Source: Bifidobacterium primatium (GTDB lineage Bacteria; Actinomycetota; Actinomycetes; Actinomycetales; Bifidobacteriaceae). Taken from it: DNA of 64,000 bases. The notes beneath the pieces are model-generated. The model did not search any database. It worked only from the letters and a program-made list of their open reading frames with translations, and was not told where the DNA came from. Position numbers and translations under genes: made by a program. This document shows positions 7,801-58,309 of this stretch, in pieces (the stretch's first letter is position 1; each line of letters begins with the position of its first letter). Location of the stretch: positions 13,353-77,352 of the forward strand of contig NZ_PEBI01000002.1 of assembly GCF_002802875.1 (NCBI RefSeq), given 5' to 3'.

Positions 7801-7856
7801 CGGCATTCCCGAATATACGGGCATATACGGGCGCAAGCCGCCGAAACCGGCAATGT

Positions 7857-7904
7857 GCGGTGCTTTATGGTCGTTTTCCGCCGGAAAAACGACCATTCGG
7901 CACC
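7857..7904. repeat. Palindromic element, copy 1 (ATGGTCGTTTT family)
   Basis: The left arm ATGGTCGTTTTCCG (7867-7880) pairs with CCGGAAAAACGACCAT (7881-7896) with one bulged base. The outer GGTGC/GCACC (7859-7863 with 7900-7904) extends the stem. The core ATGGTCGTTTT...AAAAACGACCAT and the outer GGCACCAT recur in the element at 9641-9700, so this is a dispersed repeat family and not a gene-specific terminator. The rest of the 270-base gap holds nothing recognisable. Confidence 0.75.
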
Positions 7905-8029
7905 ATACATTGCCGATGACGGGGGTTTGCGCCCGTATTGTTGCGCGATTCGGTCATGACCGCGGCATTGGCAATGGCGCGGACTAGGATATCCACGGCG
8001 AAAAAGGAGCGTGACGATAGGAGAGCGGC

Positions 8030-9613: not shown

Positions 9614-9707
9614 TTCCCGTACGAAACACCCGAACCTTCTGATTCATGGTGCCAAATGGTCGTTTTCGCCGCGAAAAACGACCATTTGGCACCATGAATC
9701 ACGGGAA
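9614..9707. repeat. Palindromic element, copy 2 (near-perfect ~60-bp palindrome)
   Basis: The sequence from 9641 to 9700 is almost a perfect palindrome: GATTCATGGTGCCAAATGGT...ACCATTTGGCACCATGAATC around a centre of CGTTTTCGCCGCGAAAAACG. An outer TTCCCGT (9614-9620) pairs with ACGGGAA (9701-9707). It shares its core with the element at 7857-7904, so the two flank the ClC gene. No T run follows on either strand. Confidence 0.8.
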
Positions 9708-13705: not shown

Positions 13706-15418
13706 ATGAGCGAGCATACCGGCGATGCCGGCGACGAACGGCCTGACGAGGGGCGTGGAGATTCATATTCCGAAAAGAGACCACGTCATGGGGCTGCCGG
13801 CGGAGCGCCCTTGGCTGAACATGAATTTGCTGCCAGTGCCAGAGCCCATGACGGTCGAACCGGCGTCGGCCGGCATGCGGCCCCTGCAGCCGTTCCCGTT
13901 GCCCCTCCTCAGTCGTCATCCCGGTCATACGCCCCGTCGATGCCTTCGCAAGGCTATCCGGCTCCGCCGCAATCGACGGTGTTTCCGCAGCCGACGGTTC
14001 CGCAATCGATAGCACCTCCGCAGCCGGCGGTGTCCCAGCAGGCGGTGTCGCCTCCGCAGCCGACGGCGGCATATGCGGCATATACGCAGTCAGGCGCATA
14101 TCCGCAGCGGTCTGAAACGAATCCGTACACCGTGTACCCCGTCCATCCGGCGACCATGTCGGCCGGCGGTCCCGCGACGGGCTTTCCTGCCGATGTACAT
14201 CAGCATTCCGCCTATCCGTCTCCCGCCGCGGCGTATCCGGCATCCCCGTATTCCGTCGCGACCTATCCTGCTGCGGCGTATCCGACCGTTCCATATCCGG
14301 CGGCCCCATACCCTGTCGCCACATATCCTGCCGGCCCATACCCAGTGGCCGTTGCGCCGGCGAAGCCCGTCCGCTTCTTCCCGGCGGTCAATCTTCGCGA
14401 TGCCCGCAAGGCGTTCAACCGCGTCGGGTGGGCGCTGTTCGCATTCCTTATCGCCACCGGCGTCGCCGCCAGAATCATCGGCATCATCGCCAGGCAGATA
14501 AGCCCCGGCATCACCGACAGCTCCGGTTCGGCGGCCAGCCTGCTGCTGGCGTCCCTCGCCCAATACGGCGTGGGCGTGCCGCTCTGCCTGCTGCTCTTCC
14601 GTCTTGCACCCCAATACCCGCCGCAGCCCAGGCCCGACGAGCCCGACGCCCGTCCCGGCATCAAACGATGGCTGATGCTGTTCCTTATGGGCTTCCCCAT
14701 CATGTACGGCGGAAGCATCATCGGCCAGCTGGTCTCGAACCTGCTGTCGATGGGCAAATACTCCAACGTGCTCGACGACCTTTCCGGCGATGCCGGCGGC
14801 ACGACGGGGGCGGTCGACTTCGCCGTGCAATCCCTCGTGGTCGTCATCCTCGCACCATGCTTCGAAGAGCTGATATTCCGCAAGATGCTCATCGACCGGT
14901 TGCGCATATACGGCGAGAAAATCGCGATATTCACATCGGCCCTGCTGTTCTGCCTCATGCATACGAACACGTATCAGACGTTCTACACGTTCGGATGGGG
15001 CCTGATCTGGGCCTACATCTACACGCGAACCGGCCGGCTCCGCTATAACATCGCCCTGCATTCATCCGCGAATCTCGTCGGCGGCGTCATCGGACCGCTG
15101 ATATTGATGAATCTGGACACATCGGCGCTCGACAACGTGGATTGGAACGACTCGCAGGCCGCAGTCGAGGCGCTCGCCCGATCGGCGCCGGCGCTCGCGG
15201 TCATCGGCGTGTACCTCCTCGCCATAATCGGCCTGGCCATCACCGGCCTGGTGCTGCTCATCGCCAAGCGCAAGGAGTTCTTCATCAAGCAGTCGGAACT
15301 GGAACTCGCACCGCGCAACCGCGTACGTGTGATGCTCGGCAATCCCGGTATGATCGTGTTCGTGACATTGACCGTTCTGGCAACGTTCGGCGCGCCCGTC
15401 ATCGCCGCGTTCTCGTGA
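13706..15418 (+). CDS. CPBP-family (CAAX/bacteriocin-processing) intramembrane metalloprotease with Pro/Tyr-rich N-terminus
   Basis: The product has 570 residues. Its C-terminal half is an Abi/CPBP domain with eight or so membrane segments and the three catalytic motifs: FEELIFRK (EExxxR), LLFCLMHTN (FxxxH) and NIALHSSANLVGG (HxxxN). Members act as intramembrane endopeptidases or as immunity and envelope-maturation factors. The N-terminal 220 residues are low complexity: first Pro/Gln/Ser-rich, then tandem YPAA/YPVATYP/YPTVPYPAAPYP units (about residues 165-215), probably a cytoplasmic disordered tail. The start follows AAAGGGG by 5 nt, and a TAGAGT -10 box lies at 13662. It has no peptide-toxin gene beside it, so a bacteriocin role is not suggested. 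Confidence 0.85.
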   Translation: MSEHTGDAGDERPDEGRGDSYSEKRPRHGAAGGAPLAEHEFAASARAHDGRTGVGRHAAPAAVPVAPPQSSSRSYAPSMPSQGYPAPPQSTVFPQPTVPQSIAPPQPAVSQQAVSPPQPTAAYAAYTQSGAYPQRSETNPYTVYPVHPATMSAGGPATGFPADVHQHSAYPSPAAAYPASPYSVATYPAAAYPTVPYPAAPYPVATYPAGPYPVAVAPAKPVRFFPAVNLRDARKAFNRVGWALFAFLIATGVAARIIGIIARQISPGITDSSGSAASLLLASLAQYGVGVPLCLLLFRLAPQYPPQPRPDEPDARPGIKRWLMLFLMGFPIMYGGSIIGQLVSNLLSMGKYSNVLDDLSGDAGGTTGAVDFAVQSLVVVILAPCFEELIFRKMLIDRLRIYGEKIAIFTSALLFCLMHTNTYQTFYTFGWGLIWAYIYTRTGRLRYNIALHSSANLVGGVIGPLILMNLDTSALDNVDWNDSQAAVEALARSAPALAVIGVYLLAIIGLAITGLVLLIAKRKEFFIKQSELELAPRNRVRVMLGNPGMIVFVTLTVLATFGAPVIAAFS

Positions 15419-15455
15419 CGGTAGCGTAAAAAACTCGATATAATACCCGCTTTAT

Positions 15456-19046: not shown

Positions 19047-20204
19047 TCAGAAATACCGCACGGGCAGATGCTCCGGCGGCAGACGGCGCGGATGATGTCC
19101 GGAGACCTCCCAGCCGAGCAGCATCAGCGTCTTGCGGTCGGCCTTGCTCAGGGCCTTGCAGTCCAGCTGTTCGATGAGGTCCGGACGGATGCGCGACGTA
19201 CGTTCCAGCGCCTCGTCGCGGCGGAACCGGTCGACCCTGCCGTGGTCGCCGCTGGTCAGGACGTCGGAGACGGCGATGCCGCGCCATGCTGTCGGGCGCG
19301 TGAACTGGCGGTGTTCCAGCAGCGGATCGCCCGTGTAGGATTCCTCCACGATGGATTCGGGATTGCCCATGAATCCCGGAATCAGGCGGACGATGGCCTC
19401 GATCATGGCCGAAACCGCCACCTCGCCGCCGTTGAGCACATAGTCGCCGATGGAGTATTCGCGCACTTCGACGCCCTGCCTGGCGTAATACTCCGGCACG
19501 CGCGCGTCGATGCCCTCATATCGGCCGCAGCCGAAGATCAGTCGCCTGGCGTGGGAGAGGTCCGTGGCATCGGCCTGCGTGAACAGCGGCGCCGACGGGT
19601 TCGGGAAGATGAGAATCGGCTTGGCCTGCATATCAGGGTCGTTGGGGTCGTTCGCGCTGGCGGCGTCGGACGTGTCGATGGAGGATCCGGTGGCCGCCGG
19701 ATGGTCGATGGGCACGTTGTAGCCGGGGGCTTCGTCGAACAGCGAATCCAATGCGGCGACAAGTTCGTCGGGGTCCTTCGCCTCGCCGAGCAGATGCTGG
19801 GCGGCGTCGCGTTTTTCGGAGGCCGCGGCGTCGGCGCGTTCCTCGGAGGTCGTTGCGTCGGGAACGGGCGTGCCGGCGGGTGTGGCGGCCTCGGTCGGCG
19901 CATTGCCGGGCCTGGGCACCAGATGGAAGTCGCGTGAGAGGATTGGCTCGCCTTCGGCGCTGAAATCGACGGGCTTGAGACCCGTCAGATCGTCAAGGCA
20001 TTCGGCCCAGATCTCCGGCTTCATCACCATGCCGGCGCCGCCGCCGACCGGGGTGTCGTCCACGGAATGATGCACGTCATGCGTCCAGTCGCGCAGATTC
20101 CGCGCGGTGACGGTCAATAATCCGCGTTGTTGGGCCTTGCCCAATAGGCTGAGTTTCAATACGTCGAAGTATTCGGGGAATACGGAAACGATGTCGATAT
20201 GCAT
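19047..20204 (-). CDS. trmD: tRNA (guanine(37)-N1)-methyltransferase
   Basis: The 385-residue enzyme methylates G37 of tRNAs reading CNN codons to prevent +1 frameshifting. MHIDIVSVFPEYFD, DDTPVGGGAGMVMKPE, the knot region LIFGCGRYEGIDARV and EYSIGDYVLNGGEVAVSAMIEAIVRLIPG are diagnostic. It is much longer than usual (about 250) because of an Ala/Asp/Glu-rich insertion of roughly 110 residues (about 90-200) just before the trefoil-knot strand. On the coding strand TACGCT lies exactly 7 nt before the ATG, with no Shine-Dalgarno: a leaderless start. In many bacteria trmD follows rimM directly; here about 6 kb of other genes lies between them. Confidence 0.96.
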   Translation of the reverse strand: MHIDIVSVFPEYFDVLKLSLLGKAQQRGLLTVTARNLRDWTHDVHHSVDDTPVGGGAGMVMKPEIWAECLDDLTGLKPVDFSAEGEPILSRDFHLVPRPGNAPTEAATPAGTPVPDATTSEERADAAASEKRDAAQHLLGEAKDPDELVAALDSLFDEAPGYNVPIDHPAATGSSIDTSDAASANDPNDPDMQAKPILIFPNPSAPLFTQADATDLSHARRLIFGCGRYEGIDARVPEYYARQGVEVREYSIGDYVLNGGEVAVSAMIEAIVRLIPGFMGNPESIVEESYTGDPLLEHRQFTRPTAWRGIAVSDVLTSGDHGRVDRFRRDEALERTSRIRPDLIEQLDCKALSKADRKTLMLLGWEVSGHHPRRLPPEHLPVRYF

Positions 20205-20237
20205 AGGTTCCAGCGTATCGCATACGCGGTTCGCGAG

Positions 20238-20301
20238 TTCACGAATCGATAGATACCGGTGATGTGAGCGCTAAATTTCCGCCTATCTCGCGATTCGTGA
20301 A
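20238..20301 (-). repeat. 64-bp inverted-repeat-ended element, copy 1 (trmD side of the cassette)
   Basis: The element starts TTCACGAATCG and ends CGATTCGTGAA, an 11-bp perfect terminal inverted repeat. Its reverse complement aligns without gaps to 26113-26176 over all 64 positions with 11 mismatches (83% identity); similarity ends exactly at the terminal repeats. The two copies are therefore inverted relative to each other and bound the gene cassette between trmD and rimM. No target-site duplication is visible. Confidence 0.85.
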
Positions 20302-20312
20302 TGGAGGCACCT

Positions 20313-20410
20313 CACAAATCATCGGAACCACCGCACAAATCGTCGGGTTTTCGGGTTTGCAGACGGCGGGAACCGATATATAGTTACTTCCGTAAACAGC
20401 TTTTAAAAGT
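20313..20410 (+). promoter_or_regulatory. Regulatory region of the dehydrogenase gene
   Basis: Two direct repeats CACAAATCRTCGG begin at 20313 and 20334, 21 bp apart (two helical turns), which is typical of operator pairs. Further on, AGCTTTTAAAAGTT contains the palindrome CTTTTAAAAG (20400-20409); related TTTTAAAAAG repeats stand before the ROK regulator gene. Both are candidates for binding by the cassette's own regulators. This belongs to a 323-base gene-free stretch that also contains the 64-bp element. Confidence 0.4.
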
Positions 20411-20527
20411 TAATAACAAAAGTTGAAACCGTTGGAAACACAAGGATTCGGCGGGTGATACCGGCGTTAACGGCTGATGAAAGCGCAAATGATGAACCAT
20501 CACAAACCATCCGACAAAGGAGTTGCA

Positions 20528-21589
20528 ATGGAAGGAATGATGAAGGGAGCCTACCTCCCCGGCAACAGCACGGTCGACCTGCGAGAGATCCCGATTCCCC
20601 ACCCCGGGTATGGCCAGGTGCTCGTCAAGATGAAGGCCTCCACCATCTGCGGCAGCGACATCCGCGCCATTTATCGTGAGCACACCGGCAAGGGCCCCGA
20701 AGGCTACCAGAACAAGGTCGCCGGCCATGAGCCCTGCGGCCAGGTCGTCGAGGAAGGCCCCGGCGTGCAGAAGTTCAAGACCGGCTCCCGCGTCATCGTC
20801 TACCACATCCACGGCTGCGGACTGTGCCACGACTGCCGCATGGGCTACCAGATCTCCTGCTCCTCCGAGCAGCGCGCCGCATACGGCTGGCAGCGCGACG
20901 GCGGCATGGAGGAATACGTGGTCTGCGACGAGCGCGACCTCGTGGCCCTGCCCGACGAACTCACCTACACCGACGGCGCCCAGGTGGCCTGCGGCTTCGG
21001 CACCGCCTACGAGGCCATCGAGAAGATCGGCGTCTCCGGCAACCACGCCCTGCTCGTCACCGGCCTCGGCCCGGTCGGCCTCGCCACCCTCATGCTGTGC
21101 AAGAGCCTCGGCGCCAAGCAGCTCATCGGCGTGGAATCCAACCCGTACCGCATCGAGCTCGCCAAGAAGCTCGGCCTCGCCGACGTGGTGCTCACGCCGA
21201 GCGAGAACAACGTGCAGGAAGTGCTCGACCTCACCGGCGGCCACGGCGTCGAACGCGCCATCGACACCTCGGGCGCCGACGCGGCCCGCGCCACCGCCGT
21301 GCGCGCCACCCGCGCATGGGGACGCATCGCCTTCGTCGGCGAAGGCGGCACCGTGCACTTCAACCCGAGCCCCGACATGCTCCACGGCCAGAAGACCATC
21401 TACGGCAGCTGGGTGACCAGCGTGGCCCGCATGGAGACCCTCGTGGAGAACCTCGTCGCCTGGGGCATCCACCCCGAGGACCTCGTCACCGACCGATTCT
21501 CCATCGACGACGCGTCCAAGGCCTACGAGCTCATGGCCAGCGGCAAGTGCGGCAAGGTCGCGGTCTGCTTCGACGAGGAGCTCAAGTAA
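20528..21589 (+). CDS. Zinc-binding medium-chain dehydrogenase (sorbitol/threonine dehydrogenase-like)
   Basis: The 353-residue MDR-family oxidoreductase has the catalytic zinc ligands Cys41 (TICGSD) and His67-Glu68 (AGHEPCG). A structural zinc loop CGLCHDC...C has Cys97, Cys100, Cys103 and Cys111. The Rossmann motif TGLGPVGLATL precedes VESNPYRIELAKKLG; an acidic Glu at the end of the second strand suggests NAD rather than NADP. It probably oxidises a polyol or a secondary hydroxyl of a sugar derivative. The ATG at 20528 has AAAGGAG 5 nt upstream and is preferred to in-frame ATGs at 20477 and later. It is the first gene of the cassette, followed by the DUF4867 and GPH genes on the same strand. 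Its third positions are strongly G/C, suggesting high expression. Confidence 0.85.
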   Translation: MEGMMKGAYLPGNSTVDLREIPIPHPGYGQVLVKMKASTICGSDIRAIYREHTGKGPEGYQNKVAGHEPCGQVVEEGPGVQKFKTGSRVIVYHIHGCGLCHDCRMGYQISCSSEQRAAYGWQRDGGMEEYVVCDERDLVALPDELTYTDGAQVACGFGTAYEAIEKIGVSGNHALLVTGLGPVGLATLMLCKSLGAKQLIGVESNPYRIELAKKLGLADVVLTPSENNVQEVLDLTGGHGVERAIDTSGADAARATAVRATRAWGRIAFVGEGGTVHFNPSPDMLHGQKTIYGSWVTSVARMETLVENLVAWGIHPEDLVTDRFSIDDASKAYELMASGKCGKVAVCFDEELK

Positions 21590-21679
21590 CTGTCGGCTGT
21601 TGCCAGCCGTCCCTTCCATGAGGAGGCGGAGAGCAATCTTCGCCTCCTTTTCCCGTATGACCTGTTTGCCCTTCATAAT

Positions 21680-21732
21680 GGCTCCCCTCAAGGTTGAGGG
21701 GAGCTGACCGCCATGAGGCGGTCTGAGGGGAG
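21680..21732 (+). repeat. Intergenic double-hairpin repeat (GGCTCCCCTC family), copy A
   Basis: GGCTCCCCTCAA-GG-TTGAGGGGAGCTG forms the first hairpin and ACCGCC-ATGA-GGCGGT the second, ending TGAGGGGAG. The same architecture occurs at 54100, 54173, 55983, 58046, 58129 and 58207. Here it separates the dehydrogenase from the DUF4867 gene. Confidence 0.8.
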
Positions 21733-21760
21733 TTCGAATCCGCTGTCGAGAAAGACCACC

Positions 21761-22435
21761 ATGATTCTCCATAACGTATTGACCGAGCCCGAGGCATTCG
21801 CGCCGTACGGGCGCGTACTGCCCTCCGACTACGACTTCACGTCCGTCATCGACGTGCTGAACAACAACACCGACGCCCCCGAAGACGGCGTCGTGTATGT
21901 GCCGAGCCTTGACAAGCTCGAAGGCCTGCCGGTCTTCGCAGACCTGCGCGACCGCATCTTCGGTGGCCTGACCATCCAGGCCGGCTACTGTAACGGCACC
22001 AACACCACGCTCAACGCCCTCGAATGCCACCGCGGCATCGAAGTGCTCGTCGCCGCCGACGACATCGTGCTCATGCTCGGCAAGAAGCAGAACATCGTCA
22101 TGAACGACGGCGACTACAGCCTCGACACCGGCACCATCGAAGCGTTCCTCGTACCCGCAGGCACCGCCGTCCTCTACTACGAGACGACCATGCACTACGC
22201 GCCCGCCACCACCAAGGGCACGTTCCGCACAGCCATCGTGCTCGTCGACGGCACCAACACCGACAAACCCATCATCCGCCCCGGCAACGAGGAGGACCGC
22301 ATCCTCTGGGCGCGCAACAAGTGGCTGCTCGCACACCCCGACTCGCCCGAAGCCGCCGAAGGCGCCTACGTCGGCCTCGTCGGCAGGAACCTCGACCTCA
22401 ACGAGGATCTCGTCTACCCCGACGCCCAGTGGTGA
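21761..22435 (+). CDS. DUF4867 family protein, cupin-like, probable sugar-cassette enzyme of unknown reaction
   Basis: The 224-residue protein resembles DUF4867 (cupin-like) proteins, which are found beside sugar transporters and dehydrogenases. Visible features are FGGLTIQAGYCNGTNTTLNALECHRGIEVLVAADDIVLMLGK, with a Cys/His/Glu cluster that could bind a metal, and YETTMHYAP. It ends in LVGRNLDLNEDL. These are consistent with a small-molecule isomerase or lyase, but the reaction is not established. No strong Shine-Dalgarno stands before 21761; the start is the first Met and is positioned as expected for the family. It lies between the dehydrogenase and a GPH symporter and probably processes the imported substrate. 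Confidence 0.7.
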   Translation: MILHNVLTEPEAFAPYGRVLPSDYDFTSVIDVLNNNTDAPEDGVVYVPSLDKLEGLPVFADLRDRIFGGLTIQAGYCNGTNTTLNALECHRGIEVLVAADDIVLMLGKKQNIVMNDGDYSLDTGTIEAFLVPAGTAVLYYETTMHYAPATTKGTFRTAIVLVDGTNTDKPIIRPGNEEDRILWARNKWLLAHPDSPEAAEGAYVGLVGRNLDLNEDLVYPDAQW

Positions 22436-22601
22436 CGACGGCCGTCCGACGGGCGACCTTCAGATGACGGACCGCTGGCGAGGCCCCATGCCTCCGCCGG
22501 CGCACACTTACGGCCACAGGCGACGCAGCCCATGGCCCCCGGCCCGCATTCAACGACGAAACCGCGAGGCCCCGCAACATCGTCCGACCCAACGAGGAAT
22601 C

Positions 22602-24044
22602 ATGACTTCAACAACACCCACGGCACCGCAATCCGCAGCATCAACCCCGGCCGCAAAACCGCGGAACACCCGCAACTTCGTGTTCTATCTGCTTGGCCTC
22701 ATCGGCCACGACGTCTTCTACTTCGGCTTCTCCCTCTATCTCATCAAATTCATCACCGGCCCGCTGTTCGACAGCGGCGACAAGGCCTACGACGACCGCA
22801 TGGTCGCCCTCATCTCCGGCATCATCATCGTGGTGCGCATCATCGAACTCGTACTCGACCCGTTCCTCGGCACCCTCATCGACAACACCAAGACGCCCAT
22901 CGGCAAATTCAAGCCGTGGATCATCTTCGGCGGCGTCGTCGGCTCCGGCAGCTTCGTCATGCTGTTCACCTCGTTCGGCGGCGCGAACATCGACAATCCC
23001 ATGCTGTACGTGGTGCTGTTCACCGTGTTCTTCCTCGTCATGGACTGCTCGTATTCGCTGTACGACATCTCCATGTGGTCGATGATTCCCGCCCTCTCCG
23101 ACACCGCCGAAGGCCGCAGCATGGCCACGTCGGTCGGTCGTCTCGGCGCCGGCCTCGGCCAGATGATCGTCACCGCCATGGTCATCCCCTCCGTGCTGCT
23201 CGGCGAGGGCATGTTCGGCAGCGAACACAACGGCTGGCTGTTCTTCTCCGTGCTCGTGTTCCTGTTCGTCATCTCGTCGGTACTGCTCACCACGTTCGGC
23301 ATCAAGGAGGTCGACTCCCCGCTGCGCGTGACCGGCGAGAAGACGAAGTTCAAAGACGTGTTCCGCATCGTGTTCTCCAACGACCAGCTCGCCTGGCTCT
23401 CGCTCTCCAGCCTGTGCTACTACTTCGCGCTGGCGCTCACCGCCGCGCTCATGACCTACTACTTCCAGTACATCTACGGCGACGCCGCCAGCTATTCGAT
23501 GATCTTCGGCCCGGCCACGCTCTCCGCCATCGTGTCCATCGCGTTCTATCCGTCGCTGCTCAAGCGATTCGAACGCAAGCCGATACTGTTCGCCGCCATG
23601 GGCGTGATGCTGCTGTCGTTCGTCGTGTTCTTCATGGCGCCGGCGAGCATGGGCGTCGTCATCGTGGCATCCGTGCTGTTCCTGTTCCCGCAGCCCATCA
23701 TCTGGGCGTCGCTCACGCTCGCGCTCACCGACACCATCGAATACGGGCAGTGGAAGACCGGCAAGCGGCATGAAAGCCTCACGCTCGCGCTGCGACCCAT
23801 GCTCGACAAGTTCTCCGGCGCATTGTCCAACGGCATCGTGGGCCTGGTGGCCATCGCCTGCGGCATGACCGGCTCGGCCACGTTCGCCGACATCGCCTCC
23901 GGCGGAAGACTGCTGTTCAAGGCGGTGATGTGCGGGGTGCCGGTGGCATTGGTGCTGCTCAGCATGCTGATCTACCAGCTGAAGTTCAAGATCACCGTGA
24001 AGTATCACGAGGAGATTGTACGCAAGCTCACCGAAGCGGCGTAA
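22602..24044 (+). CDS. GPH-family sugar:cation symporter (MFS, LacS/MelB-type)
   Basis: A 480-residue, 12-helix transporter of the glycoside-pentoside-hexuronide family. FVFYLLGLIGHDVFYFGFSLYL (about residues 26-47) opens helix 1. LVLDPFLGTLIDNTKTPIGKFKPWI (about 85-109) is the GPH signature after helix 2 with its conserved Asp residues, and SYSLYDISMWSMIPALSDTAEGRS is also typical. The late motif ALTDTIEYGQWKTGKRHESLTLA is the family marker between helices 10 and 11. It would bring in a sugar or glycoside by cation symport for the dehydrogenase and DUF4867 protein encoded upstream. CGAGGAA lies 4 nt before the ATG at 22602. The C-terminus lacks a PTS IIA domain, unlike LacS. Confidence 0.9.
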   Translation: MTSTTPTAPQSAASTPAAKPRNTRNFVFYLLGLIGHDVFYFGFSLYLIKFITGPLFDSGDKAYDDRMVALISGIIIVVRIIELVLDPFLGTLIDNTKTPIGKFKPWIIFGGVVGSGSFVMLFTSFGGANIDNPMLYVVLFTVFFLVMDCSYSLYDISMWSMIPALSDTAEGRSMATSVGRLGAGLGQMIVTAMVIPSVLLGEGMFGSEHNGWLFFSVLVFLFVISSVLLTTFGIKEVDSPLRVTGEKTKFKDVFRIVFSNDQLAWLSLSSLCYYFALALTAALMTYYFQYIYGDAASYSMIFGPATLSAIVSIAFYPSLLKRFERKPILFAAMGVMLLSFVVFFMAPASMGVVIVASVLFLFPQPIIWASLTLALTDTIEYGQWKTGKRHESLTLALRPMLDKFSGALSNGIVGLVAIACGMTGSATFADIASGGRLLFKAVMCGVPVALVLLSMLIYQLKFKITVKYHEEIVRKLTEAA

Positions 24045-24094
24045 CGGGTGTGGCCGAGTCGACGGTTTGGCGACTTTGCCTCCAAGCGCAGTGC

Positions 24095-24133
24095 GGGCGG
24101 CTTCCCTCGGAATCGGGAGAAGCCGCCCTTTTT
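24095..24133 (+). terminator. Rho-independent terminator after the symporter gene
   Basis: GGGCGGCTTCCC (24095-24106) pairs with GGG-AGAAGCCGCCC (24115-24128), with a small bulge and an 8-nt loop, followed by five T. It ends the three-gene cassette transcript; the facing araC-type gene ends 90 bases later. Confidence 0.85.
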
Positions 24134-24223
24134 ATCGATTCCTGTGCCGATTCCTTTGCCGATTGGGAGGAATCGCGGCCGGCATTGTCGATGGATGGCT
24201 TGCCGGCTCTTTCGCCGGCGTGA

Positions 24224-24682
24224 TTATGGGCGTTGTCCTCGCCTCCACTGTGCCGGCGTGGTGTTGTGCGCGGCGCGGAAGCGTCGGGTGAACACGTCGG
24301 CGCTCGCATATCCGCAGCGCCTGGCGACCCGGGCGATGCTCATATTCGATTCGGTCAGCATGGTCGTGGCCCGTTCGATGCGCCTGGCGTCGATGTACGC
24401 CTTCGCGGTCATGCCGACGCAGGCGTGGAACGTGCGGGAAAGGTAGCTGCGATTGACGTTCACCGCGCGGGCCACCGACGCCACGTCGATGGGAGTGCAG
24501 ATGTTCCGGTCGATGTACGCCAATGCGTGACGCACGAGTTCGTCGCCGGGCGACATGTAGGAAGCGGCGTGGTCGTCTCGCTCGCGCTTGCCGAAGTCGA
24601 TATCGGCTCCGATCGCGATATCGTCGCCGGCTTCCTTGCCGAGTGCCGCTTCGTTGCCGTATGCCGTTGTCATGTGCGTCAT
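24224..24682 (-). CDS. Short AraC-family transcriptional regulator (DNA-binding domain only)
   Basis: The 152-residue protein consists of a 45-residue N-terminal tail and the AraC HTH_18 domain. ALAYIDRNICTPIDVASVARAVNVNRSYLSRTFHACVGMTAKAYIDARRIERATTML is the first HTH, and MSIARVARRCGYASADVFTRRFRAAHNTTPAQWR the second, with the signature GYxsxxxFxRxFrxxxgxtPxxyR. The usual sensor domain is absent, so it resembles truncated or stand-alone AraC proteins such as SoxS/MarA. No good Shine-Dalgarno stands before the ATG at 24682; a second in-frame ATG is at 24673. It is divergent from the ROK gene, 199 bases away, and convergent with the symporter gene. Confidence 0.75.
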   Translation of the reverse strand: MTHMTTAYGNEAALGKEAGDDIAIGADIDFGKRERDDHAASYMSPGDELVRHALAYIDRNICTPIDVASVARAVNVNRSYLSRTFHACVGMTAKAYIDARRIERATTMLTESNMSIARVARRCGYASADVFTRRFRAAHNTTPAQWRRGQRP

Positions 24683-24760
24683 CGCGCATCACCGCCATTC
24701 GAATGTGGTTGGTACGGAAGGGAAATCGGCTGTATACAGCGATTTGCCTGACCGCCGCAT

Positions 24761-24797
24761 TTATTTTAAAATAACTTTAAAAAGTAGTTTTAAAAAG
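24761..24797 (+). promoter_or_regulatory. Operator candidates between the araC and ROK genes
   Basis: TTATTTTAAAATAA (24761-24774) is a perfect 14-bp palindrome similar to NagC/ROK-type operators. TTTAAAAAG occurs at 24776-24784 and again at 24789-24797. A -10 candidate TACAAT (24844-24849) lies downstream, before the ROK gene. The AT-rich block stands out in a GC-rich genome and shares TTTTAAAA with the region upstream of the dehydrogenase gene. Confidence 0.5.
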
Positions 24798-24881
24798 AGT
24801 ATCACGTATTGTCATACCGCGCGACCGGCGTTTTCCGGTCCCGTACAATGAAGTGGCAGTACCGACAAAGGAGCGTTTGGC

Positions 24882-26108
24882 ATGAACATGCAATCAACGG
24901 CGATGGCGACGTTGACCGAATCGACGTCGGAACGAGCGGCGTCGGGGAAGGCGACCACGAAGCTCGCCAAACGCCGGATGATTCTCGACTACATGTACAC
25001 CCATAAGAAGGGGTCGCGGCAGGACATCGCCGCCGCAGTGCCGTGCAGTCTGCCGATCATCGCGCAGAATCTCGCCGTTCTGGAGGACGAGGGCCTGATC
25101 CGCCGCACCGGCTTCCTGACGTCGACGGGCGGTCGCAAACCGCAGAACTACGCGTTCGTGCCGAAGGCCCGGGTGGGCATCGGTGTCTCGATATTCGCCG
25201 ACGGCATGGATATCTGCGCGGTCGATCTCGACGGACGTCGTCTGGATTCCTCGCATATCGACCTGACCTATGAAAACACCGATATGTTCTACGACAACGC
25301 CTGCACGGCGATTCTGCGATTCGTTACCGATGCGGTGGACCGCGAGAATGTCGATCCGCGCGGCATTCTCGGCATCGCATTCTCGGTGCAGGGTCGTGTC
25401 TCGCCGGATGGCGACCAGATCACGTTCGGGGGGATCCTCGGCAATACGGGGCTTTCCGTCCGGCCGTTCGCCGAACGCCTGGACTTCCCCTGCCAGTTCA
25501 TCCACGACGCCTATTCGGCGGCGACCGCGGAGGTGTGGTTCGACCCGAGCGTGGGGGACGCGTTCTGCCTGTATCTCAACGAACATGTAGGCAGCGCGGT
25601 GATCATGGACGGTCGTGTGCGGCAGGGAGCCGACCTGCGCACCGGGAACTGCGAGCATATGACGCTTATGCCCGGTGGGCGCGCCTGCTATTGCGGGCGT
25701 CGAGGCTGTGTGGACGCGTACTGCTCCCGTGCGGCGCTGCTGGGGGAGGGGCGCGCGACCGGTGGTGCTTCGAGCGTCGAGGAGTTCTTCCGTCGGCTGC
25801 ATGCGGGCGACGCATCGTGCGCGAAGTCGTTCGACGACTACATGGACGCGTTGGCGCAGGCGATCGCCAACATGAGGTCGGTATTAAGCGTGGACGTGAT
25901 TCTTGGCGGCGATATCGCTCGGTTCCTCACCGATGCCGAGCTTGTGGACCTTACACGGCGTGTACGGGGGCTCGATCCGTTCCCGACGAGCACCGTCCGT
26001 CTGCGCAGAAGCGTGGCGCAGACGGACGGCGTCGCCGGGCAAAGCACGCTGGGTGCCGCCCTGCATTACGTGCGCAGATTCGTCGACGAATCCACCGGCC
26101 GGGCATAA
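24882..26108 (+). CDS. ROK-family transcriptional regulator (NagC/XylR-type)
   Basis: The 408-residue protein has an N-terminal winged HTH (about residues 25-80: KRRMILDYMYTHKKGSRQDIAAAVPCSLPIIAQNLAVLEDEGLIRRTG) followed by a ROK sugar-kinase-like domain. The zinc motif CEHMTLMPGGRACYCGRRGCVDAYCS (around residues 255-280) has the GxxCxCGxxGCxx spacing. Such proteins repress sugar-use genes and release DNA on binding a sugar or its phosphate. AAAGGAG lies 10 nt before the ATG; an in-frame ATG at 24888 is an alternative. It lies downstream of the putative operator palindrome, so autoregulation and control of the dehydrogenase gene are likely. It ends 4 bases before the second 64-bp element. Confidence 0.9.
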   Translation: MNMQSTAMATLTESTSERAASGKATTKLAKRRMILDYMYTHKKGSRQDIAAAVPCSLPIIAQNLAVLEDEGLIRRTGFLTSTGGRKPQNYAFVPKARVGIGVSIFADGMDICAVDLDGRRLDSSHIDLTYENTDMFYDNACTAILRFVTDAVDRENVDPRGILGIAFSVQGRVSPDGDQITFGGILGNTGLSVRPFAERLDFPCQFIHDAYSAATAEVWFDPSVGDAFCLYLNEHVGSAVIMDGRVRQGADLRTGNCEHMTLMPGGRACYCGRRGCVDAYCSRAALLGEGRATGGASSVEEFFRRLHAGDASCAKSFDDYMDALAQAIANMRSVLSVDVILGGDIARFLTDAELVDLTRRVRGLDPFPTSTVRLRRSVAQTDGVAGQSTLGAALHYVRRFVDESTGRA

Positions 26109-26112
26109 TCGG

Positions 26113-26176
26113 TTCACGAATCGGCGGATACGCGGTGAATTAACGCTCACATCGCCCGTATCTACCGATTCGTGAA
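26113..26176 (+). repeat. 64-bp inverted-repeat-ended element, copy 2 (rimM side of the cassette)
   Basis: TTCACGAATCG and CGATTCGTGAA bound it as in copy 1 at 20238-20301, to which it is inverted and 83% identical over its full length. The conserved core is CGCTCACATC. It fills the gap between the ROK stop (26108) and the rimM stop (26180) almost exactly. Confidence 0.85.
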
Positions 26177-26179
26177 CAA

Positions 26180-26800
26180 TCACCGGTCCTGAAGGAGTCC
26201 GTTCGGGGGAGTGAGAACGAGATATCCCTCGTCGGGATCGACCTCGGGGACGATTTCCTCGACGAACGGGACCAGCGACTCCGCGCCGCTCGGCTCGGTG
26301 ATGGTGAGAAGCCACTGCGCGGGGGATTCCATCACGTCGGTGACCTTGCCGGCGACCACATACGCGGCATCGGAGCCATCGTTGTCGGAGCCATCGGCGT
26401 CCGAATCGGTGTTGCCGTCGGTGTCTTTATCCTCATAGATGCGCGCCTCGAGGCCGATGAGATCCTCGGCGTAGAAGCCGTCGTCCTCGTCGTCCCCGTC
26501 ATCGGAATACGTGGGCTCCACATAGAGCATCGTGCCGTTCAACGCCTCCGACGCATTGCGGTCGGCCACGCCTTTGAACAGCACGATCCAACGTTCTTTG
26601 AACTTTCGCGACCGTACGACCTCGAATTCGCGGCCGTCCTCGGTCAGCAGCACGGAGCCGGGCGCGAAGCGCTCCTCCGGCTCGTCGGTGAAGGCGCGAA
26701 CGTTGACCTCGCCCTTCAGTCCCTGGGCCCTACCAATACGACAGACCCTCAGCAGCGTGAGCTGCTGAGGGTCTGCACTATGCTTTTCTGCCATCGTCAT
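26180..26800 (-). CDS. rimM: Ribosome maturation factor RimM
   Basis: The 206-residue protein binds S19 and helps 30S head maturation. LLRVCRIGRAQGLKGEVNVRAFTDEPEERF is the N-terminal RimM domain, and the PRC-barrel part includes AEDLIGLEARIY and LVPFVEEIVPEVD. It is longer than usual because of an Asp-rich insertion (DKDTDGNTDSDADGSDNDGS, about residues 123-142), and a second acidic loop precedes it. On the coding strand TAAAGT lies exactly 7 nt before the ATG at 26800 without a Shine-Dalgarno, pointing to a leaderless transcript separate from rpsP-khpA. An in-frame ATG at 26794 is an alternative. Confidence 0.95.
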   Translation of the reverse strand: MTMAEKHSADPQQLTLLRVCRIGRAQGLKGEVNVRAFTDEPEERFAPGSVLLTEDGREFEVVRSRKFKERWIVLFKGVADRNASEALNGTMLYVEPTYSDDGDDEDDGFYAEDLIGLEARIYEDKDTDGNTDSDADGSDNDGSDAAYVVAGKVTDVMESPAQWLLTITEPSGAESLVPFVEEIVPEVDPDEGYLVLTPPNGLLQDR

Positions 26801-54096: not shown

Positions 54097-54195
54097 TCAA
54101 CTCCCCTCAGTCAGCTTCGCTGACAGCTCCCCTCAATCATGAGGGGAGCCAAAGCCGAGAGGTGTGTGACTTAGCTCCCCCTGGAGATCAGGGGG
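54097..54195 (+). repeat. 99-bp direct repeat flanking fimA, left copy
   Basis: Identical at 97 of 99 positions to 55980-56078; the copies are 1,883 bp apart and contain the whole fimA gene between them. Each contains one GGCTCCCCTC-type hairpin repeat in reverse orientation, the shared spacer AAAGCCGAGAGGTGTGTGAC, and the start of a second hairpin repeat. Confidence 0.9.
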
Positions 54196-55979: not shown

Positions 55980-56078
55980 TCAACTCCCCTCAGTCAGCTT
56001 CGCTGATAGCTCCCCTCAATCATGAGGGGAGCCAAAGCCGAGAGGTGTGTGACTTGGCTCCCCCTGGAGATCAGGGGG
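55980..56078 (+). repeat. 99-bp direct repeat flanking fimA, right copy
   Basis: Matches 54097-54195 with two differences (C/T and A/G). Immediately after its end the sequence diverges: here it runs into a second hairpin element, while the left copy completes its double hairpin. Confidence 0.9.
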
Positions 56079-58029: not shown

Positions 58030-58045
58030 GGGCTGTCATTCCACT

Positions 58046-58309
58046 GGCTCCCCTCCTAACGGAGGGGAGCTGTCGGACAAAGTCCGACTGAGGGGATTCC
58101 CGCTTGGGTGTGCGCTCTGCATCTCTCTGGCTCCCCTCCCGACGGAGGGGAGCTGTCCGCCGTAGGCGGGCTGAGGGGAGCGCTGCTGAGAATCCGGCTT
58201 CGCTCAACTCCCCTCAGTCAGCTTCGCTGACAGCTCCCCTCAATCTTGAGGGGAGCCAAGAAAAAGACGACCTCAGTAGTTGCGCTGACAGCTCCCGCCG
58301 GCGGGAGCC
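58046..58309. repeat. Cluster of GGCTCCCCTC-type hairpin repeats after the pilus locus
   Basis: Four copies occur in a row: 58046-58095 (plus), 58129-58180 (plus), 58207-58257 (reverse) and a shortened relative at 58271-58309. Each has a CCCCTC/GAGGGG hairpin and a second variable hairpin. No gene is present in the 323 bases before the ABC permease. Confidence 0.85.

Follow-up and report, generated by a model that had tools for sequence, protein, structure and literature searches.

Several classes of short palindromic or inverted sequence have been described in bacteria that invite comparison with the locus reported here. Repetitive extragenic palindromic (REP) sequences and bacterial interspersed mosaic elements (BIME), which go with RAYT (Y1) transposases, are short extragenic palindromes that are dispersed, clade-specific and often located behind stop codons; miniature inverted-repeat transposable elements (MITEs) are short, end in terminal inverted repeats, have no coding capacity and are present or absent between relatives. 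The attC sites of integrons are imperfect palindromes with conserved ends and a variable center behind a stop codon, and the palindromic elements of Rickettsia can sit within reading frames. The locus in question lies in a 64,000-nucleotide stretch of the Bifidobacterium primatium genome (contig NZ_PEBI01000002.1; the whole stretch is referred to as the window), in which a cassette of five genes between trmD and rimM is bounded by two inverted 64-bp palindromes, E1 on the trmD side and E2 on the rimM side. Both belong to a dispersed palindromic repeat family that is restricted to one clade and has a preference for gene 3′ ends, and the account favored here, with moderate confidence, is that such gene-end palindromes came to lie on either side of a catabolic cassette that was already in place, and afterwards acted as deletion endpoints.

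The stretches 20237-20301 and 26113-26177 form the longest inverted pair of the window and are 83% complementary. The pattern TTCACGAATCG N35-50 CGATTCGTGAA is matched in the window by E1 and E2 only, both at 64 bp, and yields 0 matches in 100 shuffles. E1 and E2 are identical at 53/64 positions in inverted orientation and at 43/64 in direct orientation; of the 53 agreeing positions, 22 are the perfect 11-bp arms, and outside the arms 31/42 agree. Each element is an imperfect palindrome by itself, with 22/32 mirrored positions pairing. E2 fills the convergent gap between the genes for the ROK regulator and RimM, 4 bp from the ROK stop codon and 3 bp from the rimM stop codon. The original prediction, which had taken the five genes and their borders for a small mobile or shuffling unit, is correct in its description of the pair, as seen in both the inverted-pair and the pattern search, and profile matches to the flanking proteins confirm that trmD and rimM are parted by five genes within E1 and E2.

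The expectation that the 64-bp sequence would recur in other bifidobacterial genomes was also borne out. The exact arm pattern is present in four of nine genomes of the genus: 2 copies in the genome of the window (2.70 Mb, 8 contigs), 6 in B. catulorum (G002), 6 in B. pluvialisilvae (G004) and 2 in B. saimiriisciurei (G005). With a covariance model, the 64-bp copies number at least 5, at least 16, at least 13 (one of them 63 bp) and at least 6 in these genomes, respectively; B. vansinderenii (G008) gave one weak 64-bp match of 29 bits that failed the arm test. The length is highly constant, as arm pairs 22-160 bp apart in the fetched loci are 64 bp long in 20 cases and 42 bp in 5, with every other length seen at most 3 times. 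An alignment of 20 copies is free of gaps; the arms (TTCACGAATCG/CGATTCGTGAA) are nearly invariant and the middle varies, and one sub-group of copies has a common GTGAGCGCT-like core. The halves of the center still pair, with 81% of cells paired and a covariation score of 0.258, compared with 0.133 ± 0.015 after shuffling (0/500 reaching the true value) and 0.05-0.15 in slid registers. When 151 genomes of the family were searched with stricter filters, 9 had a match at E ≤ 1e-5, six in the genus and three in one other genus, where the matches differ in length (62, 74-75 and 46 bp) and have arms only partly alike. B. callimiconis (G001) and B. vansinderenii have a sister type, 72-74 bp long and with TTCACAAATCGAAGATACC as its arms. 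No published description of the 64-bp repeat was found among the listed titles and abstract openings from an open-access subset of the literature, which is not to claim that none is in print. The exact arm pattern occurs 0 times in viral contigs, a set from which near kin of the window may be absent, and carriage of the repeat by phages was dropped as an explanation.

Other palindromes were noted alongside this family. The trmD-encoding stretch of B. pullorum contains a 75-bp palindrome whose arms are different (L027:10299-10373). A related 38-bp palindrome, CACGAATCG-NN-GATA-N8-TATC-NN-CGATTCGTG, is arranged in intergenic arrays that repeat every 53 bp, with 15-nt spacers that are not conserved (L165-L175); 11 loci, chosen for holding such repeats, contain 48 of the 38-bp units, and units of the same sense are spaced by exactly 53 in 81 instances, examples being G000:C2:153357-153716, G004:C2:29229-29862 and G005:C3:93303-93880. 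As a post hoc remark, palindrome lengths of 42, 53 (the period), 64 and 72-76 bp approximate 4, 5, 6 and 7 turns of the DNA helix.

The preference for gene ends was assessed by asking whether a frame of 100 codons or more has its stop codon within -8 to +12 bp of an element edge. Among 39 distinct 64-bp copies, 27 are at a gene end at one edge or both and 10 at both edges, compared with 8.6% and 0.2% for random positions in the same loci and with 15.4% and 0.4% for a fairer control, 10,515 overlapping windows of 64 bp taken from outside long frames and at a distance from elements. Of the 37 gene-end edges, 10 touch the stop codon directly, and in another 10 the element itself supplies the stop (TTCATGA or a similar sequence, offset -7). 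E2 adjoins a gene end at either edge, and E1 is among the 12 copies that adjoin none; the sister 72-74-bp type is at gene ends in only 2/9 cases.

This placement is also what speaks for the strongest competing account, in which the palindromes are primarily RNA signals of 3′ ends, either terminators working in both directions or hairpins at mRNA ends, that selection spread or kept, with the flanking of the cassette a by-product. It is partly compatible with the deletion-endpoint account and is regarded as a real possibility, albeit not the expected one. The compensatory pairing agrees with it, as do the stable hairpins of the three copies that were folded (-21.8, -33.7 and -55.0 kcal/mol), and at L192/L209 the element makes up nearly the whole gap of two convergent genes, where the genome of the window has, by eye, an apparent ordinary terminator. 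Set against this, only 1/40 copies scores as a hairpin-plus-U-tract terminator, and an apparent ordinary terminator stands beside the element at L193 and L204, as judged by eye from the flanks. In B. pluvialisilvae and B. catulorum the single copy separates two genes, rimM and trmD, that run in the same direction, and a terminator needs no fixed length. Terminators were counted beside 4/30 element gene ends and 10/291 control frames; many of the control frames are probably not genes, which makes this comparison uninformative.

A broader reading, put forward only as a doubtful speculation, would place these sequences in a super-family of bifidobacterial gene-end palindromes that act as DNA and not as RNA. 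Each lineage would have fixed arms, a free self-complementary center and a length near a whole number of turns, with a putative protein bound; copies would gather at stop codons and serve as deletion or inversion endpoints of accessory genes, so that sites with a single copy might be scars of lost cassettes.

The history of the rimM-trmD interval was compared in 80 loci of the Bifidobacteriaceae, the best 80 of 180. A gap could be measured in 65 of them (33 of at most 260 bp, 9 of 261-1,300 bp and 23 above 1.3 kb); the remaining 15 comprise 13 without a rimM match in the fetched stretch and 2 with rimM on the other side. Elements with at most two mismatches per arm are inside the interval in 3/80 loci. 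In 70/80 loci, compared with a background of 3.5%, the trmD start codon is preceded by a TANNNT box that begins 12-20 nt away from it; a conserved -10 box of this kind suggests that detachment from its operon would do trmD no harm. Variable cargo would then need no special enzyme, as trmD would have its own promoter, and the interval would tolerate gain and loss for the same reason.

A tree of the flanking proteins (63 loci, FastTree, support values not inspected) places the relevant species as ((window, saimiriisciurei), (pluvialisilvae, catulorum)), then (tissieri, (vansinderenii, callimiconis)), then simiarum; B. saimiriisciurei is the nearest named relative among the fetched loci. The window and B. 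saimiriisciurei have the order rimM-E2-cassette-E1-trmD. In B. pluvialisilvae and B. catulorum the cassette is missing and one element lies between rimM and trmD; this element is oriented as E1, with a rimM-side flank like that of E2 and a trmD-side flank like that of E1. B. callimiconis (L016) and B. vansinderenii (L050) have the same five genes in identical order, place and orientation and no 64-bp element. In B. tissieri the cassette is absent; a 35-38 bp stretch matches the 3′ end of the ROK gene at 89-91% when the cassettes of L016 and L050 are used as query, and no match is found there with the window's own cassette. B. simiarum has different cargo in the interval.

The cassette proteins are 86-87% (dehydrogenase), 90% (DUF4867 protein), 83-85% (GPH symporter), 67-68% (ROK) and 49-58% (AraC) identical to those of B. 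callimiconis and B. vansinderenii, and the core genes 73-74% (recG), 75% (rsmD), 67-68% (trmD), 79-80% (rimM) and 93% (rpsP). In degree of divergence the cassette proteins thus resemble the core genes, the cassettes of these relatives lack elements, and B. tissieri retains the short ROK match, so the cassette is probably old and the elements later arrivals. E1 agrees with three dispersed copies of the sub-group at 51, 53 and 54 of 64 positions and with E2 at 53/64; E1 being no closer to E2 than to dispersed copies, separate landings fit. In B. vansinderenii a different dispersed repeat stands, inverted, at both cassette ends, which indicates that these borders collect whichever repeats a lineage has; among the 9 genomes, only those of B. 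callimiconis and B. vansinderenii have this repeat when two mismatches are allowed.

The proposed sequence of events is as follows. The five-gene catabolic cassette would already have been between rimM and trmD, as its distribution in relatives suggests, when the repeats inserted on either side of it, E2 settling in the convergent gap between the ROK gene and rimM, and E1 immediately before the trmD promoter. The ancestor of B. pluvialisilvae and B. catulorum would then have lost the E2-to-E1 stretch through recombination, leaving one element; as E1 and E2 are inverted, such a deletion would have to use the arms, which the two have in common in direct orientation. A second locus probably lost a gene likewise and kept a chimeric copy. 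There, B. catulorum (L199) has the order C-element-X-element-B with direct copies, and B. pluvialisilvae (L211) has C-element-B. The flanks fit, and at the five positions where the B. catulorum copies differ from each other the B. pluvialisilvae copy has the series A A B B B, as expected of a single crossover. B. saimiriisciurei has gene X in the corresponding position, so the gene was probably lost in B. pluvialisilvae and in the genome of the window.

Gene X itself has no Pfam match. Its family was tried as the enzyme acting in trans and dropped, repeats being close by only at L229, L230 and L245 among 30 loci of 32 matches, by motif positions. At L290 (G005:C15:30700-35600) gene X is flanked on both sides by the 53-bp arrays, and its 65% identical homolog in B. 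catulorum by 64-bp elements. Gene B, for a membrane transport protein (PF03547; L289, L290, L211, L199), is inverted between the genomes of the window and B. saimiriisciurei on one hand and those of B. catulorum and B. pluvialisilvae on the other; a 64-bp copy stands on either side of the gene in B. catulorum and B. pluvialisilvae. The flanks of L207 (G005:C12) and L217 (G004:C18) are 100% and 99.6% identical over 500 bp, and the species differ elsewhere; the B. saimiriisciurei assembly is listed with 9% contamination, and the contig of L207 may be foreign.

Several observations weigh against the deletion-endpoint account. Homology of the cassette reaches to about 6 bp from E1 in B. vansinderenii and to 11 bp from E2 in B. 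callimiconis, placing the elements at the cassette borders, as the boundary of a unit would. The four elements at rimM-trmD have CTCACATC where, by eye, the dispersed copies of the sub-group have CTCACAAC/CTCACAAT or similar, and E2 may derive from E1 or have been homogenized with it. Parsimony is neutral, as a single old gain plus two losses costs three events, and so do two gains plus a single loss. The diagnostic positions at rimM-trmD display no clean crossover, reading A..B..A in B. pluvialisilvae and mostly E1-like in B. catulorum. At a third variable locus, 4-5 kb of cargo beside a single element is present in the genomes of the window and B. pluvialisilvae and absent in B. catulorum and B. 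saimiriisciurei, and the element is not the breakpoint; insertions and deletions above 350 bp occur at borders without elements as well.

Presence and absence were also followed at single sites. In seven further loci, compared in whichever of the genomes of the window, B. saimiriisciurei and B. pluvialisilvae had been fetched, L193 is nearly clean in B. pluvialisilvae (10 bp), L204 in B. pluvialisilvae has a recognizable 64-bp copy, and L194 in the window genome and B. saimiriisciurei is of the 38-bp type; the other counterparts hold other sequence, some with an apparent ordinary terminator. No target-site duplication was found at two aligned sites with empty orthologs, where diverged flanks could hide an old one, and none was seen by eye at two near-clean empty sites (L193 in B. 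pluvialisilvae; L215 in the window genome and B. saimiriisciurei). The notion of the elements as hotspots of gene gain and loss was set aside: there are two paired-element losses and one single-element locus, insertions and deletions occur elsewhere too, and no enrichment is claimed.

The proposal that E2, the cassette and E1 form a composite or MITE-ended mobile unit moved by an enzyme in trans is considered improbable. Part of it stood: a repeat family exists, an empty site with one element and no cassette is present in two relatives, and the interval is variable, with 23 of the 65 measurable gaps above 1.3 kb; the sharp inverted ends and the close stop of cassette homology near both elements also agree with it. 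What did not stand is the role of the elements as bringers of the cassette, as two species have the identical cassette at the same place and in the same orientation without the 64-bp element, and target duplications are absent at the two aligned sites. Of the three cassette-bearing relatives, these two lack the boundary elements and B. saimiriisciurei has both. The elements, moreover, belong to a dispersed gene-end family, most of the compared loci are collinear around them, and the exact 64-bp pattern is not in the viral contigs.

Very doubtful is an integron-like scheme, in which a recombinase would insert a gene with a 64-bp palindrome behind its stop at an existing palindrome, one-element sites being ancestral: the conserved ends with a free palindromic center, the palindromes directly behind stop codons and the unit of gene X plus element with direct repeats agree with it, but E1 and E2 are inverted and not direct, gene X in B. 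saimiriisciurei is at the same place flanked by another repeat type, which favors loss in B. pluvialisilvae, and the integron integrase model exceeds its curated cut-off in 0/9 genomes, with weaker matches below it in each of the 9, as in each of the 14 control genomes, and other tyrosine recombinases in 9/9.

The coordinates of the elements and genes are collected in Table 1. As had been predicted, the five genes are of the sugar-metabolism and regulation type (dehydrogenase, DUF4867 protein, GPH symporter, AraC and ROK regulators), and domain searches found no transposase or integrase domain in their five proteins. The DUF4867 protein is present in 6/151 genomes of the family, 4 of these 6 in the genus Bifidobacterium, and the dehydrogenase-DUF4867 pair also occurs in two distant Bifidobacteriaceae, in one of which it adjoins what is read here as an apparent ABC sugar-binding protein. 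A relative of the DUF4867 protein has been solved (9gyy), and a role in ketose ring isomerization has been proposed, not shown (PMC11968277). The cassette looks like an accessory sugar-use unit, and its loss should therefore change the diet of the bacterium.

Table 1. Features of the trmD-rimM region and of a further repeat site, in window coordinates
Feature	Position	Strand	Remarks
Site empty in window	15418..15425	.	One element in B. catulorum, tandem pair in B. pluvialisilvae
trmD	19047..20204	-	Domain match
Leaderless-type -10 box of trmD, TACGCT	20212..20217	-	Hexamer begins 13 nt before start codon; from window sequence
E1, 64-bp palindromic repeat	20238..20301	.	33 bp upstream of trmD start codon; covariance model 66.6 bits (copy included in model)
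Zinc-dependent alcohol/sugar dehydrogenase (ADH_N/ADH_zinc_N)	20528..21589	+	Open reading frame (ORF) open from 20477; start chosen by the authors
DUF4867 protein	21761..22435	+	PF16161, 2.1e-68; ORF open from 21713
GPH-family sugar:cation symporter	22602..24044	+	TIGR00792, 352.9 bits; ORF open from 22464, start chosen by the authors
AraC-type regulator	24224..24682	-	Domain match
ROK-family regulator	24882..26108	+	Domain match
E2, inverted copy	26113..26176	.	Covariance model 67.9 bits (copy included in model)
rimM	26180..26800	-	Domain match

Other repeats were seen in the window, where Rfam reported tRNAs only. A dispersed hairpin repeat, GGCTCCCCTC..GAGGGGAGC, occurs at 21679-21712, 54119-54157, 56002-56040 and 58045-58264, the first copy lying in the cassette between the dehydrogenase and DUF4867 genes. 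An inverted repeat with 53-bp arms and a AAAACGACCAT core at 7825-7938 is akin to 9646-9693, and hairpins like it were seen by eye near G000:C1:166680 and 349450.

With respect to wider meaning, the states of the interval (cassette without the 64-bp repeat, cassette with two repeats, one repeat without cassette) can be ordered on the species tree, and a suspected mobile cassette becomes a testable case of repeats shaping gene content. In comparison to the known systems, the 64-bp family resembles REP/BIME in being dispersed, clade-specific and often behind stop codons; it differs in its fixed 64-bp length and free center, in its at least 5-16 copies per genome where REP sequences number in the hundreds, and in its lack of the matching enzyme, as a search of the nine genomes for Y1_Tnp, on which the REP/RAYT explanation was rejected, found it in 0/4 genomes with the 64-bp class and in 1/9 overall (G003, which lacks the class). 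The shortness, the 11-bp arms as terminal inverted repeats, the lack of coding capacity and the presence or absence between relatives are shared with MITEs, as opposed to the missing target duplication at the two aligned sites and a conservation mainly of the arms, the center diverging yet staying palindromic with no common internal parent sequence. The likeness to attC sites extends to the imperfect palindrome with conserved ends and variable center behind a stop codon; the nearly invariant TTCACGAATCG/CGATTCGTGAA ends, however, hold no GTT/GTTRRRY core, the motif of attC sites. As for the Rickettsia elements, compared here in their general features, the 75-bp match within the trmD stretch of B. 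pullorum is alike, whereas the 64-bp class is mostly at gene ends. An intrinsic terminator is approached by the stable hairpin of the folded copies and not by the U-tract, present behind the hairpin in a single copy. None of the families tested accommodates this one, with its constant length, free pairing center, stop-codon placement and absence of a matching enzyme in the searches; it could represent a lineage-specific route of gene loss in bifidobacteria.

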